Part shown: piece by piece, positions 1,766 through 11,932 of the stretch
Position numbering within the stretch: the stretch's first letter is position 1
How the letters are laid out: the number at the start of each line of letters is the position of its first letter
Assembly: GCA_001302985.1 (NCBI GenBank)
Contig: LJNG01000003.1
Coordinates: forward strand, 1 to 41,616
DNA length: 41,616 bases
Reading direction: 5' to 3'
Origin: Parcubacteria bacterium DG_74_3
GTDB lineage: Bacteria; Patescibacteriota; Minisyncoccia; Minisyncoccales; DG-74-3
Position numbers and translations under genes: made by a program
The notes under the pieces: generated by a model
What the model saw: the letters and a program-made list of their open reading frames with translations, nothing else
Databases searched by the model: none
Told to the model about the DNA's origin: nothing

Positions 1766-3115
1766 ATGAACAACGAAGAGCTCTGGCAGGCAACTTTAGC
1801 CCAAATTCAACTATCGATTTCTCCTGCAAATTTTGCCACCTGGTTCAGGCAAACCAGGGTTCTTTCTCTAGAAGGTGGAAGGGTTGTAGTTTCAGTGTCT
1901 AACTCTTTTGCAAAAGAATGGCTTGAAAACAAATATGGTAAAACTATTTTAAAAATCTTGCGAAGCCTAGATGAAAAAATTAAAGAGGTGAATTATGAAA
2001 TTGGGCAATCAGAACTAAGAACAACAAAAGAGGGTACCCTATCTCTTCCGGAAATTAGCCAACTCGATTTACAAGATTTTAAGATTCAAAAGGAGACAAA
2101 CCTAAACCATAAATATACTTTTGAAAATTTTGTAGTTGGTCCTTTTAATGAGTTAGCTCAAGCTGCAGCCTGGGCCGTTTCTGAAAACCCAGGTTCGGTT
2201 TATAATCCACTCTTTATTTATGGAGGGGTGGGACTGGGTAAAACCCACCTTTTACAAGCGATTGGAAACGAAGTAATTAAAAACTCCTCGAGAAAAAAGG
2301 TTAAGTATACCCCCTCGGAAAAATTCACCGCCGGTGTGGTCTCTTCTATTAGAAATCATAGTATTGAAAACTTTAAATTGAAATATCGGGCAATAGATGT
2401 TCTAATTCTAGATGATGTTCAATTTTTGGCTGGTAAAGAAAAAACTCAGGAGGAATTTTTCCATCTTTTCAATAATCTATACGAAAAGAATAAACAGATA
2501 GTCCTCTCTTCGGATCGTCCTCCAAAAGCAATTCCTGCTCTTACTGAAAGATTAAGATCGCGGTTTGAGGGAGGTATGATAGCAGACATAGGCTTTCCCG
2601 ACTATGAAACCCGGATGGCTATTTTAAAAACAAAATGTCAAGAAAGAAAAATTATTTTCCCCAATGAGGTTCTTGATTATGTTGCTGCTAATATTCAAAA
2701 AAATATCAGAGAACTAGAGGGAGCTCTTACTAGATTAACCGCCTTTCGGAAACTTAACAACCAAGAACCCAATCTGGAGGTTACAAAATCCCTACTTAAA
2801 AACCTGATTTTCTCGCCAAAGAAAATAGTCACACCTAAAAGAGTAATTAAGATGGTTGCTGAGTTTTATGACTTAAAACCAAAAGAGCTTCTATCTTCTT
2901 CGCGGAAAAGAGAAATAGTTGGCCCGCGACAGGTAGCTATGTACCTTTTAAGAGAGGAACTAAAAAGCTCTTTCCCCTTTATAGGTAGACAATTTGGTAA
3001 TAGAGACCATACCACCGCTATCCATGCCTGTGAAAAAATTTCTAAAAACAAGGAGAAAGATAATAAATTGGATGAGGAAATCAACTTAATAAAACAACGC
3101 ATTTTTAGTCAATAA
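1766..3115 (+). CDS. dnaA: Chromosomal replication initiator protein DnaA
   Basis: GGVGLGKTHLLQAIGNE Walker A, LILDDVQFLAGKEKTQEEFFHLFN, C-terminal RDHTTAIHACEKI. Confidence 0.98.
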   Translation: MNNEELWQATLAQIQLSISPANFATWFRQTRVLSLEGGRVVVSVSNSFAKEWLENKYGKTILKILRSLDEKIKEVNYEIGQSELRTTKEGTLSLPEISQLDLQDFKIQKETNLNHKYTFENFVVGPFNELAQAAAWAVSENPGSVYNPLFIYGGVGLGKTHLLQAIGNEVIKNSSRKKVKYTPSEKFTAGVVSSIRNHSIENFKLKYRAIDVLILDDVQFLAGKEKTQEEFFHLFNNLYEKNKQIVLSSDRPPKAIPALTERLRSRFEGGMIADIGFPDYETRMAILKTKCQERKIIFPNEVLDYVAANIQKNIRELEGALTRLTAFRKLNNQEPNLEVTKSLLKNLIFSPKKIVTPKRVIKMVAEFYDLKPKELLSSSRKREIVGPRQVAMYLLREELKSSFPFIGRQFGNRDHTTAIHACEKISKNKEKDNKLDEEINLIKQRIFSQ

Positions 3116-3264
3116 AAAGAGGAAAACCCTCGAAAAAAAACAAACAACCCCTTTTTTCCCAAACACGCCCCTTTTAATAAACAACCTTTCCTTCTATTTA
3201 TCCCCAATTCTTATTAATTAAAAACGTTTTTATTCTTTCTTTTTAATAACAATAAAATAAAAAT
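3116..3264. promoter_or_regulatory. dnaA-dnaN intergenic with second DnaA-box-like motif, G-poor tract and AT-rich stretch
   Basis: TTATCCCCA at 3198-3206; about 3130-3206 almost G-free on + strand, then AT-rich run into dnaN. Confidence 0.4.
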
Positions 3265-4395
3265 ATGAAATTAATAGTATTACAAGAATTATTAAAAGAG
3301 GGTTTAAAAATAACAAGTCGAATTTCTATAAAGTCGCTTTCTTTTCCAATTTTAAACAATCTTTTTTTATGCGCAGAAAAAAATTTTATTAGTTTAAAAG
3401 GTACTGATTTAGAAACAGGAATAACCTGGTGGTCTTTAGCAAAGGTAGAAAGAGGGGGAAAAATAGTGATTCCCGCTCAACTTTTTTCTAACTTGGTTAG
3501 TTTTCTTCCAAATAAAAAAGTTACCCTAGAAACAAAAGATTTCCTTTTAGATATTTCCTGTGAAAACTACAAAACCCAAGTTAAGGGTTTTAACCCCGAC
3601 GACTTTCCAATTATTCCTCAGGTTCCCAGAGAAGAAAAAATCTTAGTGGGAAGTCAGGATTTTTGCCAAAGCTTATCCCAGGTTGTTGGGGTTGCTAGTC
3701 CCTCAACTACTCGACCTGAAATTTCCGGAGTTTATTTTTCTTTTGGAAAAAACTCTATTAAAATGGTCGCTACCGATAGTTTTAGACTGGGAGAAAAAAC
3801 CCTTTCTTTGAAAAAACCCAGTGAGCTTCGCCAAGAATACTCACTTATTTTACCTCAAAAAGCAGCCAGAGAGGTTATTAATATCTTTGAAGAAGATAGG
3901 GGAGAGCTTCAGGTTTTTTTAGCTCCAAACCAAATTTTATTTGAAAGTATTATGTCCGAGACCCAACACCCTAAAATCCAGTTAGTCTCTCGATTAATTG
4001 AAGGTGAATATCCTAATTATCAGGAGATTATTCCTAAAAAACACGAAACCAAAATAATTTTCCAAAGAAATGAGTTTCTTAACCAGATTAAAACAGCCAG
4101 TCTTTTTAGCGGGAAAATTAACGAAATTAAATTAAAGGTTAATCCAAAAACAGGAAAGGTGGAAATATTAAGCCAAAGTCCTGATTTGGGAGAATACCAA
4201 AGCTTTTTTACCGCCCAAATTAAAGGCCAGCCAGTTGAAATCTCTTTTAACCACCGCTTTTTAGCCGATGGTCTTTCAAATATAAAAAGCTCAGAGGTAA
4301 TCTTTGAGCTTAATGGCGAAGGAGGCCCAGGGGTTTTAAAGCCCTCTGAAGACCCAACTTACCTTTATATTGTTATGCCTATTAAAGCGAGTTAG
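3265..4395 (+). CDS. dnaN: DNA polymerase III beta subunit (sliding clamp)
   Basis: Clamp-like sequence (SGVYFSFGKNSIKMVATDSFRLGEK; C-terminal YLYIVMPIKAS); follows dnaA. Confidence 0.96.
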   Translation: MKLIVLQELLKEGLKITSRISIKSLSFPILNNLFLCAEKNFISLKGTDLETGITWWSLAKVERGGKIVIPAQLFSNLVSFLPNKKVTLETKDFLLDISCENYKTQVKGFNPDDFPIIPQVPREEKILVGSQDFCQSLSQVVGVASPSTTRPEISGVYFSFGKNSIKMVATDSFRLGEKTLSLKKPSELRQEYSLILPQKAAREVINIFEEDRGELQVFLAPNQILFESIMSETQHPKIQLVSRLIEGEYPNYQEIIPKKHETKIIFQRNEFLNQIKTASLFSGKINEIKLKVNPKTGKVEILSQSPDLGEYQSFFTAQIKGQPVEISFNHRFLADGLSNIKSSEVIFELNGEGGPGVLKPSEDPTYLYIVMPIKAS

Positions 4396-6346
4396 TTCCG
4401 GGCCCTTCGGTAGAATAGGGGGTAAAAATTTCTTTTGGGTATTTTTCTAAAACCTTATCCATAAAAGCGTGAAAAATTGGACCAGCGAGAACAACTCCTG
4501 GTTTTTTAAATGACGGGCTGTTGTCGTTATTGCCAGCCCAGACCCCAACTACCAACGAAGGAGTATAACCTATTGTCCAGGCATCTTGGTAGTTCTGGGT
4601 GGTTCCGGTTTTAGCAGCAACCTGAAACCCTGGAAAATACAAGGAAGAACCAAGTCCAAACATAGGAGCTCTTGCCTCGTTATCTGATAAAATATCATTG
4701 ATCATTCTGGTTACCTGTACGGGCAAAACTCTTTTTTGGGTTTTTTTATTTTCTTCAATAATATTTCCGTTCATGTCCTCAATTTTTAAAATAGCAACCG
4801 GTGGCACCTTTAAGCCTTCGGTGGCAAATGTACCATAAGCCGAAACCATGTCCAATAGTTTAACTTCCCAACCTCCAAGCACAATTGAAGGTCCAAAGGG
4901 TGTTTTCAGGGTTGTAATACCAAGATCGCGGGCAGTGGTAACCGAGTTTTCAATTTCTGGCCCTGCAAAATCTAAAAGGACTTTTACCGAAGCAACGTTT
5001 ATTGACTGGGCTAGTGCTTCTTTTAGAGTAATTTCTCCTCGAAATTTTCCATCGTAATTTTTAGGAATATACTCTTCGTCTCCCCAAATTCCAAAATTAG
5101 TCTCCTCATCAATAACCCGGGTTTCGGGAGTAAACCCCCTTTTAAACGCAGTGGCATAAACAAAAGGTTTAAAAGCTGAACCTGGCTGTCTTAGTCCTAA
5201 GGTTGCTACGTTAAATTGAGGGTCAAATTTACAATTTACTCCTGGGGTACATCCTTCAGGATAAGGGTCCTCAAAATAATCTGTCCCACCCACCATAGCT
5301 AATATTTCTCCTGTTTTCGGGTCAAGGGCTACCAAGGCAGCGTTATAGGCATTATAATTTTTATTTACTTGAACCCGATCTTTTACCACTGTTTCGGCTA
5401 ATTGTTGAATCTCCCAATCTAAAGAAGTAAATACCCTTAACCCCTTTTCTCTTAAAAACTCTTGGCTATATTTACTATCCAGATATCCTTTCACGTATTG
5501 GAGAGTAAAGTAAGGAGCCCTGATCGTTGTTGGTTTGGCAAAATTTAACTCTTCTATTCCGGCTTCCTCGGCTTCAGCTTGAGTTATATATCCCAACTTC
5601 ACCATTCTCTCTAAGACATAATCTTTTCGAGACATAAGCTCTTTTTGATTTTGATAGGGAGAGAGATAGCTTGGTGCCCGAATTAAAGCTACCAGGGTAG
5701 CAGCCTGAGCTAAAGAGATTTCAGAAACTGACTTTTGAAAATAGGTTTGGCTAGCTGCCTCTACCCCATAAGCGTTTGAACCAAAAGGAACCTGGTTTAA
5801 ATACCATTCTAATATCTGGTCTTTGGAATAACGTCTATCTAACTCTAAAGCCAAAATGATTTCTCTAATTTTTCTTTCAGCTGTTTTTTCGGTAGATAAA
5901 AAGGTTGACCTGATTAATTGCTGAGGAATGGTTGAGCCCCCATAAACAGGTTTCATTATTTTAAAGTCTGCCAAAATTGCTCTCACAATTCCTTTAAAAT
6001 CAATCCCAAAATGATAATAAAAATTAGCATCCTCGGTAACAATAACAGCCTGTTTTAAATATTCTGGGATTTGTTCCAAAGGAATAACCGTCCTTTTCTC
6101 TTCACCATGAATATCATATAAAAGAACCTGACCCGTTCTATCATAAATCTTGGTTGATTGGATGAATTGACGTTCGGTAAACTTTTCGGGTCGAGGAAGA
6201 TCTTTACCGTAATAAATAAACAAAAGCAAACCCAGGACAATTACCAACAAAAGGCTGGAGAGAAAAAACTTTAAGAAAGAACCAAACACACTCTTGGTTT
6301 TCTTCTTTTCTCGATAGACTTTTCGATAATATCTTCTTTTAGCCAT
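4382..6346 (-). CDS. Penicillin-binding protein 1A (transglycosylase/transpeptidase)
   Basis: EDANFYYHFGIDFKGIVRA, GGSTIPQQLIRS, RQPGSAFKPFVYATAF, SINVASVKV, AAKTGTTQNYQDAW. Confidence 0.95.
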   Translation of the reverse strand: MAKRRYYRKVYREKKKTKSVFGSFLKFFLSSLLLVIVLGLLLFIYYGKDLPRPEKFTERQFIQSTKIYDRTGQVLLYDIHGEEKRTVIPLEQIPEYLKQAVIVTEDANFYYHFGIDFKGIVRAILADFKIMKPVYGGSTIPQQLIRSTFLSTEKTAERKIREIILALELDRRYSKDQILEWYLNQVPFGSNAYGVEAASQTYFQKSVSEISLAQAATLVALIRAPSYLSPYQNQKELMSRKDYVLERMVKLGYITQAEAEEAGIEELNFAKPTTIRAPYFTLQYVKGYLDSKYSQEFLREKGLRVFTSLDWEIQQLAETVVKDRVQVNKNYNAYNAALVALDPKTGEILAMVGGTDYFEDPYPEGCTPGVNCKFDPQFNVATLGLRQPGSAFKPFVYATAFKRGFTPETRVIDEETNFGIWGDEEYIPKNYDGKFRGEITLKEALAQSINVASVKVLLDFAGPEIENSVTTARDLGITTLKTPFGPSIVLGGWEVKLLDMVSAYGTFATEGLKVPPVAILKIEDMNGNIIEENKKTQKRVLPVQVTRMINDILSDNEARAPMFGLGSSLYFPGFQVAAKTGTTQNYQDAWTIGYTPSLVVGVWAGNNDNSPSFKKPGVVLAGPIFHAFMDKVLEKYPKEIFTPYSTEGPGTNSL

Positions 6347-9175: not shown

Positions 9176-10438
9176 TTATTCTATATTCTTTTTGATATCA
9201 ATTTTTTCCACTTTCTTTTTTAAAATAACGATACCGACAGAAGAAAGAATAGCTAGAGAAAAAGCAATAAGAAAAATAGAAAAGAAATTTTTAGGTTTGG
9301 GCACCTGCTCACTAATTGTTGCTAAGTTTTTTTGAACACCTGTTTCATGGCTGCCATTGTCCGGAAAAAACTCTCTTTCCTCAAGTTCTATTTCAGCTCC
9401 CGAAGCCGGTAAATCAGTAGTGTTGGCTGAGCCCGGGGTAAGGACAGAGCTCCAAATCCATTCAGCGTCTATTAAATTATAAGATTGCTCCGGGAAAGCC
9501 CTTTCATAATTAACCTCATCTAAAAGCTCTTTATTTGGGTTAAAAAGTCTTAAGCCGTCGCCACTATTATTTAAAGTAATTTTAGTGGTGGGTCGAGAGA
9601 GGACCAAAAAACTTTGGGGCGCGATTAAAGTTTCTTCAGAAAAAATATAGGTGTTAGTTCTTCCAACCACATCAACAATTTGCCAAGAATAGAGATTAAC
9701 CTCAAAATTATTTTGATTAAAAATTTCAATCCATTCTTCCTCTGCATCAGAACCAAGGGGAGAGGGTAAAAGCTCGTTGAACAGGACGCCTTCTGGATAG
9801 GTTTTGAGTTTTGTTGTCTGTTCAGGTTTCTGAGTTGGTTTTGATTCCGGGCTTTTTTCAACCAAGATTTCGTTTTGGAACCCAGGGGTTCCACCAATAT
9901 TTTTACTAGTTTGCCAATTTAAAGAAGAAGCTGTCAAGAAAGAGTTTTTTCTTTCCATTGTTCTCTTGTCAATATTGTCGCCAGCGAACCAGCCCTCGCT
10001 GCAGTCTATCCGGTCAACCAGATTATTCGTATCATCAAAAAGCCTTAAGTCTTCTCCATCATTGTTCAAAGAGCCTTTATAAACCTGGTCAGCTACTATG
10101 TTGGGCAAAGTGATATCGTCTGTTCTTTCCAAAAGAAAGAAACCATGAGCATAAATAGTCCCAGAAAAACTGATTTCTGGGGTTCCGTCTTGAGCCATCA
10201 ATCTCCAGCCAGAAAGATTAATGTCTGAAGGAGTGTTATTAAAAATTTCCATCCACTCATCGTTGTAAGAGATTCCCGTTCCCATCCAACTAATTTCATT
10301 AATAACAACATCAAGGAAATTAGCAGCTTGACCCAAAATAGGGAAAAAGAGGCCCAAAATAATTACGACCACTTCACACACCCTTACTTTTCTAATAGAA
10401 AAAGGGATAGAGGTTATGACCCTTGACAAATTTTCCAT
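9176..10438 (-). CDS. Secreted/membrane-anchored protein with two lamin-tail (LTD)-like domains
   Basis: N-terminal hydrophobic segment; VVINEISWMGTG..DEWMEIFNNT and LFNELLPSPLGSDAEEEWIEIFNQN LTD patterns; C-terminal TM plus basic tail. Confidence 0.8.
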   Translation of the reverse strand: MENLSRVITSIPFSIRKVRVCEVVVIILGLFFPILGQAANFLDVVINEISWMGTGISYNDEWMEIFNNTPSDINLSGWRLMAQDGTPEISFSGTIYAHGFFLLERTDDITLPNIVADQVYKGSLNNDGEDLRLFDDTNNLVDRIDCSEGWFAGDNIDKRTMERKNSFLTASSLNWQTSKNIGGTPGFQNEILVEKSPESKPTQKPEQTTKLKTYPEGVLFNELLPSPLGSDAEEEWIEIFNQNNFEVNLYSWQIVDVVGRTNTYIFSEETLIAPQSFLVLSRPTTKITLNNSGDGLRLFNPNKELLDEVNYERAFPEQSYNLIDAEWIWSSVLTPGSANTTDLPASGAEIELEEREFFPDNGSHETGVQKNLATISEQVPKPKNFFSIFLIAFSLAILSSVGIVILKKKVEKIDIKKNIE

Positions 10439-10451
10439 AATATATTACAAT
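10423..10451 (+). promoter_or_regulatory. Sigma70-type promoter driving the 10.46-kb ncRNA
   Basis: TTGACA (10423-10428), 17-nt spacer, TACAAT (10446-10451). Confidence 0.8.
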
Positions 10452-10457
10452 AATAAT

Positions 10458-10588
10458 ACTGCCCCAGGGCTGGGGAAGAGGAATTTCTCTAAGATGGATA
10501 GTTTGGCTTTAGCTAGGCTAATCCTCGGGGAAATTCTGAACTTTGCGTTCCCAATACCTAAGTTAACCCAGCCCTGGGGCTTTTTTTA
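10458..10588 (+). ncRNA. Structured small RNA of about 130 nt, family not assigned
   Basis: Promoter, then closing stem GCCCCAGGGCTGGG/CCCAGCCCTGGGGC plus U7 tract; inner helices GAATTTCTC/GGGGAAATTC and GGATAGTTTGGC/GCTAGGCTAATCC; no ORF. Confidence 0.75.
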
Positions 10589-11932
10589 TTGACCGATTAC
10601 TCTTTCTAATTCTTCAATTGTAGTAATGCCTTCTAAGACCTTAATTAATCCGTCTTGATACATTGGCACCATTTTCTTTTTAATTGCCTTTTCTCTTAAG
10701 GTAGCTATTGAGGGTGAAGTCGATATAAATTTTTCCATTTCATCATCGATTAAAAAAGTTTCAAAAATTCCAGTTCTGCCATTATAACCTGTTAAATTGC
10801 AGCCTCTACAACCCTTGGCCTTGGGAATTTTAAGATCTGGTTCTAACTTGGGAATTTGAATTTCGCTTGGAATATTTTTAAGATTTTCTCTTATCTTTTT
10901 CAGCTCAGTACTGCTTACTTTTTCCAATCTGGAGCACTTTAGGCAAACCTTTCTAACCAATCTTTGGGCGATAACTAAGTTTATGGCCGGAGCAATATTA
11001 ATTGGTTTTTCTCCCAGAGCCTGCAATCTCGCAACAGTGCCCGCAGCATCATTTGTATGCAAAGTGGTAAAGACCAGATGTCCGGTTAAGGATGCCTGGA
11101 GGGCAGTCCGGGCAGTCTCTAAATCTCTGACCTCTCCCACCAAAACCACATCAGGGTCTTGGCGCATAATGGATTTTAAACCATTAGCAAAATCATAACC
11201 CTTTTTGGGATTAACCTGGGTTTGAGAAATCCCTCCCAGATGATATTCAATCGGGTCTTCAATAGTAATAATTTTTATTTCTGGTCTTTGAATTTTCGTT
11301 AAAAAGGCATAAAGGGTAGTGGTTTTACCAGAGCCCGTGGGACCCGTCACAATAATCATGCCGTTGGGTCTTTTTATCTCTTTACTAAAAAGTTGGAGGA
11401 GATCTTGCCTAAGCCCCAAAGCCTCCATGTCAATTAAATTTTTTGGGTCTAAAATTCTGAGCACAATTGACTCTCCAAACTCTGCGGGCAAGGTTGAGAC
11501 CCTAATTTCAATTGGATTTTCTCCAAACAAAAATGAAAAACGGCCATCTTGTGGCCGGTCGGTAATATTCAATTTAATGCCAGAAAGGAGTTTTATTCGA
11601 TTAAGAAATCTCTGGTATGCTTCTAAATTGAAACTTAAAACGTCCTGCAAAAGGCCATCAATTCGTATTCTCAATCTGACCAGATCTTCTTTTGGCTCAA
11701 TGTGGATATCAGAAGCACCAAGGACCACTGCTCCGCCCAGGGCAGTTTCTAGAATTTCAGTAATGCTTTTTACCAAAGAGGCTGTTATTTTGGTTTTGAA
11801 ATCAGAAATATTTTTAACTTCTTTCTTAATAATCTGAAGCTGGGCTGTGGGAAGTTTAATTTCACCGGTAATTCTTTGACCACGCTCAGGATCGTGAGCT
11901 TCCTGAATTATTTTTTTTGAAACTTCTTCCAT
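10586..11932 (-). CDS. GspE/PilB-family type II secretion/type IV pilus ATPase
   Basis: IIVTGPTGSGKTTTLYAFL Walker A, IKIITIEDPIEYHL, LRQDPDVVLVGEVRD, C-terminal CxxC pairs. Confidence 0.93.
   Translation of the reverse strand: MEEVSKKIIQEAHDPERGQRITGEIKLPTAQLQIIKKEVKNISDFKTKITASLVKSITEILETALGGAVVLGASDIHIEPKEDLVRLRIRIDGLLQDVLSFNLEAYQRFLNRIKLLSGIKLNITDRPQDGRFSFLFGENPIEIRVSTLPAEFGESIVLRILDPKNLIDMEALGLRQDLLQLFSKEIKRPNGMIIVTGPTGSGKTTTLYAFLTKIQRPEIKIITIEDPIEYHLGGISQTQVNPKKGYDFANGLKSIMRQDPDVVLVGEVRDLETARTALQASLTGHLVFTTLHTNDAAGTVARLQALGEKPINIAPAINLVIAQRLVRKVCLKCSRLEKVSSTELKKIRENLKNIPSEIQIPKLEPDLKIPKAKGCRGCNLTGYNGRTGIFETFLIDDEMEKFISTSPSIATLREKAIKKKMVPMYQDGLIKVLEGITTIEELERVIGQ

Follow-up and report, generated by a model that had tools for sequence, protein, structure and literature searches.

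A predicted structured noncoding RNA family kept tail to tail with a short PilB-type ATPase gene across a class of Patescibacteria

Sequence comparison identifies a new family of structured noncoding RNA that is encoded on the plus strand of contig LJNG01000003.1 of Parcubacteria bacterium DG_74_3 and that is kept tail to tail with the gene for a short PilB-type ATPase across the class to which this bacterium belongs. The novelty lies in the RNA family, and we do not claim a new mechanism. The locus is part of the window, i.e., the whole stretch of 41,616 nucleotides that was analyzed. A first-pass annotation made from the letters alone had proposed a stand-alone structured RNA gene at this site; the conservation, covariation, strand-specific G-U pairs, promoters, and U tracts of 131 homologues strongly support that proposal and, with it, the view that the predicted RNA is the product of a real, independently promoted gene. 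The conserved convergent partner, pilB, was missed in that annotation.

The promoter TTGACA-N17-TACAAT (positions 10423 to 10451 of the window, plus strand) is present as had been described, with the -35 box at 10423 to 10428, the -10 box at 10446 to 10451, a 17-nt spacer, and 11 of the 12 consensus bases. The RNA is predicted to be about 130 nt long (10458 to 10587, plus strand), its 5' end being placed from the -10 box and its 3' end from the U tract, and a covariance model matches positions 10460 to 10582 with 112.9 bits. The reported 14-bp end stem (10461 to 10474 with 10567 to 10580) was found directly before a U7 terminator tract (10581 to 10587, plus strand), which overlaps the pilB stop codon (10586 to 10588) of the other strand. 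The absence of a plus-strand gene downstream was likewise correctly noted, the next gene being pilB (10586 to 11932, minus strand) in convergent orientation. An ORF with an LTD domain (9176 to 10438) would contain the RNA promoter within its first codons, and its true start may be further in.

Folding bore out a strongly stable structure: the energy of region 10440 to 10600 was -65.2 kcal/mol versus -40.2 ± 4.0 kcal/mol for dinucleotide shuffles (z = -6.33), and none of 200 shuffles folded as well. The predicted layout is a three-way junction composed of a closing stem (P1), a long arm (P2 plus P4), and a small arm (P3), all on the plus strand. P1 is the 14-bp end stem, the 3' arm of which doubles as the terminator stem; both the predicted fold and the pair statistics given below define it. 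P2, resting on the same two kinds of evidence, pairs 10480 to 10490 with 10527 to 10537. The apical hairpin P4 (10496 to 10524, with 10496 to 10507 opposite 10512 to 10524) has a small internal mismatch and a variable tetraloop and is flanked by a conserved AG/UC internal loop. P3 (10539 to 10564) is a small 3'-side hairpin with the AACTT/AAGTT stem and often GUUCC in its loop. The inner helix, the capped hairpin, and the 3'-side hairpin of the first-pass annotation thus exist, but the rod with an asymmetric bubble into which they had been assembled does not.

A nucleotide search of 60 relatives yielded seven clear homologues (71% to 75% identity), all with the promoter, the closing stem, and the small 3' hairpin. 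Within the order, covariance model R1 matched 118 of 147 genomes (E values up to 0.1), including 92 of the 114 good-quality ones, and the RNA was almost always single copy in this search; several complete genomes of the order gave no RNA with R1. A second covariance model, R2, built from 91 sequences, matched 103 of 238 genomes sampled across the class (E values up to 0.01), and in the phylum sample it gave only one match beyond the class, a doubtful one. Named genomes searched with a pattern gave 12 records, all confirmed by R2; those named beyond "bacterium" were all Patescibacteria (e.g., Nealsonbacteria, Brennerbacteria, Parcubacteria, and "Paceibacterota"). On this basis, the window is assigned to the Paceibacteria (Parcubacteria) branch. 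Three weak matches were rejected: one outside the class (G254) had no pilB homologue in the locus examined, and those in G104 and G560 (22 to 31 bits), with neither promoter nor pilB in the loci examined, were attributed to chance. Two variants were observed: (i) two tandem RNA copies lie beside one pilB in genome G053 (L110, positions 2501 to 2785), and (ii) an insertion in the apical loop lengthens the hairpin by tens of bases in genome G023 (L250, positions 2495 to 2687), the remainder being intact.

Signals for initiation and termination were conserved along with the RNA. Promoters with at least 10 of 12 consensus bases preceded 85 of 91 homologues, compared with 53 of 1,820 shuffled flank controls, and 31 of the 91 had a perfect 12/12 match. 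At the same threshold, a promoter was found for 33 of 41 class-wide rows, a set that includes the row of the studied locus itself and one opposite-strand row. In part of this set the promoters lie farther upstream, so that other orders may have an RNA with a longer 5' part. Positions +1 to +7 after P1 were T in 59% to 86% of cases across homologues, and bases -2 to -5 before P1 were A in 57% to 71%, so that a pilB-strand transcript would have a U-rich tail there; as a side role, P1 may terminate transcription in both directions.

Conservation and covariation in relatives, proposed as checks at first pass, were both found, in 91 order-level and 41 class-wide rows. Among the 91 homologues, 95.2% of the paired cells held standard pairs (79.6% when shuffled), and 36 of 39 pairs showed two-sided changes; the cells with such changes numbered 663, compared with 182 ± 20 in shuffled alignments and at most 182 when the partner strand was slid, in an alignment that was fitted to the structure and so favors pair statistics. 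A MAFFT alignment alone of the first eight sequences already contained 21 pairs with two-sided changes. In the 41 class-wide rows, 92.0% of the cells were paired, with 297 two-sided-change cells against 85. Two-sided changes occurred in all 17 model pairs of P1 (97.1% of cells paired), in 10 of 11 pairs of P2 (94.0%), and in 9 of 11 pairs of P4. The P3 alignment was too poor for pair statistics, and P3 is supported by local folds, which gave a hairpin in nearly all 91 homologues, the folded segment being mostly 25 to 30 nt long. GG, CC, and CCUC segments were nearly invariant, and the AG/UC internal loop adjoins the GG/CC segments; the apical loop of P4 varied (UUAG, GAGA, UUCG, UAAU, and others). 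G-U cells outnumbered A-C cells both in P2 (215 versus 28) and over all pairs (401 versus 70), indicating that the folded product is the plus strand. Selection thus acts on the fold of the RNA's own strand, which makes the element more than an antisense RNA or a terminator. The P3 loop (GUUCC) is complementary to GGAA at the start of P2 (-4.35 kcal/mol versus -3.29 ± 0.18 kcal/mol for letter-shuffled loops), but a switch or pseudoknot is not claimed, since the true partners were no better than species-swapped loops.

The partner gene encodes a 448-amino-acid PilB/GspE-type ATPase with a T2SSE domain only (Pfam T2SSE, E = 3.2e-118); the best NCBIfam models for the product were GspE and PilB, both below the cut-off. 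A homologue of it converges on the RNA in 91 of 91 order-level genes and in 40 of 40 additional loci, which mostly belong to different orders of the class (131 of 131 in total), and also in all 12 named GenBank records, some of which are the same genomes as those surveyed. The end of pilB mostly lies within a few tens of bases of the RNA, with gaps of sometimes up to about 1.2 kb. The partner ATPases are mostly about 430 to 450 amino acids long and distinct from paralogues of ~580 amino acids in the same genomes. Other neighbors were retained in 15% to 73% of the same stretches (tsaE, yebC, LTD, ruvC, and polA): tsaE in 32/60 and 6/20, yebC in 44/60 and 5/20, and the LTD gene in 28/60 and 6/20.

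The association is not strictly reciprocal. Twenty genomes of the order had no model match; 15 of them contain a gene closely matching the short pilB, and 5 have only weaker, long-type matches. Scoring every position of those 15 genomes detected the RNA in two (46.7 and 36.7 bits) and a possible one in a third (26 bits), and no convincing RNA lay beside pilB in the remainder. At least 10 genomes thus carry the short pilB with no RNA beside it, so that PilB as such does not require the RNA. Conversely, the RNA was not found in genomes lacking a close short-pilB match. Two arrangements depart from the simple tail-to-tail pair. In genome G002, a second RNA copy with its own TTGACA/TATTAT promoter lies 2.6 kb from the first; the AG of its conserved loop has been lost, and the copy may be in decay. 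In genome G127, two genes separate the RNA from pilB and the RNA is still kept; judged by eye, the intervening ORFs (L251, positions 2662 to 4723) may encode a DNA adenine methylase and a restriction enzyme.

Rfam 15 covariance scans, at the gathering level and relaxed, assigned the RNA to no family, the best matches being chance ones with E values of 1.4 or worse, in line with its presentation as unassigned at first pass. Within the literature searched, no relevant account appeared of any structured RNA from Parcubacteria or next to pilB. A 5' leader or riboswitch was rejected because no same-strand gene lies downstream and pilB is convergent in all 131 surveyed loci. The raiA-motif and OLE RNAs are widespread structured RNAs with their own transcripts that are kept beside genes of one cellular system; the present RNA likewise adjoins genes of one system, whereas those RNAs are larger, belong to other phyla, and gave no match in the Rfam scans.

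We favor the reading that the RNA serves the type IV pilus system by binding a protein or acting in trans, at a probability of about 0.48. The RNA would be abundant and constitutively made, its fold would be recognized by a protein (PilB or a different factor, either of the pilus or RNA binding), and it would work in the type IV pilus pathway, e.g., by tuning PilB activity or placement; alternatively, it could carry a regulator to pilus mRNAs. The strength of the promoter, the conservation of the internal loop, and the selection for a fold on one strand argue for an RNA that works in folded form, for which protein binding is the simplest route. From the linkage to pilB we infer that its work would concern the pilus, a step from linkage to function. 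The second copy in G002, with its own promoter, and the separated RNA in G127 hint at action in trans. RNA biology at a PilB ATPase has a precedent in Synechocystis, where Hfq is located at the pilus base through PilB1 and an antisense RNA, PilR, is present, but that work describes no dedicated gene for a structured RNA next to pilB (PMC7076178). A stronger proposal, which is rather unlikely, would make the RNA a component devoted to the type IV pilus machinery of Paceibacteria, or to the control of that machinery, and bound by the pilus ATPase or a partner.

The main rival is an effect in cis on pilB, which we consider possible, though clearly less probable than the favored reading: P1 would be a two-way terminator, and the convergent RNA would limit pilB by antisense pairing or polymerase collision. 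The invariant convergence, the tight linkage without spread to other sites, the overlap of the U tract with the pilB stop codon, and the A-rich bases before P1 are all consistent with such an element. However, termination and antisense pairing need neither P2 nor P4, both of which covary and prefer G-U on the plus strand, and the second (G002) and separated (G127) copies speak against it as well. The overlap of RNA and pilB predicted from the sequence covers the pilB stop codon only. In Neisseria meningitidis, an antisense RNA promoter similarly lies 3' of a type IV pilus gene, pilE, on the opposite strand; that RNA spans the whole of pilE, whereas the present one reaches only the stop codon of pilB and carries a selected fold of its own (PMC4402397).

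It is rather improbable that the RNA is a housekeeping molecule with no tie to the pilus, having inherited its pilB neighborhood by chance. Strong consensus promoters, a single copy, and wide distribution would suit such a role, but the other neighbors were lost much more often than pilB in the same genomes, and the RNA was not found in some complete genomes or where a close short-pilB match was missing.

6S RNA binds the sigma-70 RNA polymerase and templates pRNA, and the first-pass annotation had seen a vague 6S-like shape here. The outlines do agree, since both RNAs are free-standing, with a strong promoter, a closing stem, a small 3'-side hairpin, and a long arm. Moreover, RF00013 gave nothing above the cut-off in the order, and every 6S match in the phylum sample comes from other classes, which would leave room for a shrunken 6S RNA regulating RNA polymerase. 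Nevertheless, the resemblance did not hold, and this identity is very unlikely. RF00013 did not match the genome of DG_74_3, the studied locus, or 20 homologues even at E values up to 10, and R1 did not match 6S loci of Patescibacteria, which have no pilB nearby. The present RNA is also shorter and pilB linked, and where 6S RNA has a central bubble whose 5' strand is open over some 10 nt or more, the 5' strand of the P1-P2 junction measures 2 to 4 nt in 76 of 91 homologues and is followed by the covarying helix P2. In addition, genome G027 has both the pilB-linked RNA and a separate 6S-like sequence on contig 17 (L021/L256; 28.2 bits), possibly from contig contamination; R1 did not match L021, and it was rejected as a homologue. 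Separately, divergent 6S RNAs were observed in other classes of Patescibacteria (L133 to L152; 3 above and 19 below the Rfam cut-off), many of them with a GGGA...CCCACCT core, and these are candidates to widen RF00013.

In SRP RNA, the domain IV tetraloop and its flanking loops bind Ffh. SRP RNA was not detected in the order (RF00169, 0/60 genomes; RF01854, 0/40; E values up to 1), and most control genomes were positive, so that the SRP RNA of the order is either very divergent or absent. A diverged SRP (4.5S) RNA, for which that absence speaks and which the single copy and a size in the range of the small form (RF00169 and RF01854 being the small and large bacterial forms) might recall, is nonetheless hardly credible here, given that no GGAA-type tetraloop with conserved Ffh-binding loops was seen by eye in 91 sequences, the apical loop of G023 tolerates an insertion of tens of nucleotides, and several complete genomes gave no match.

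The Patescibacteria that carry the RNA are ultra-small, mostly uncultured bacteria. In the Patescibacteria, type IV pili are believed to power attachment to a host as well as the uptake of DNA. Type IV pili support host binding in cultured Saccharibacteria (PMC12206443). As judged from its genomic company, the RNA probably does something for the pili of these bacteria, and an RNA so firmly tied to a single pilus ATPase gene throughout the class would represent a layer of control or a component that nobody had looked for. With the covariance model, the partner gene, and the conserved loop in hand, its function is directly testable, and if the RNA is bound by the pilus ATPase or a partner, it would be the first such RNA-protein pairing for the pilus motor.
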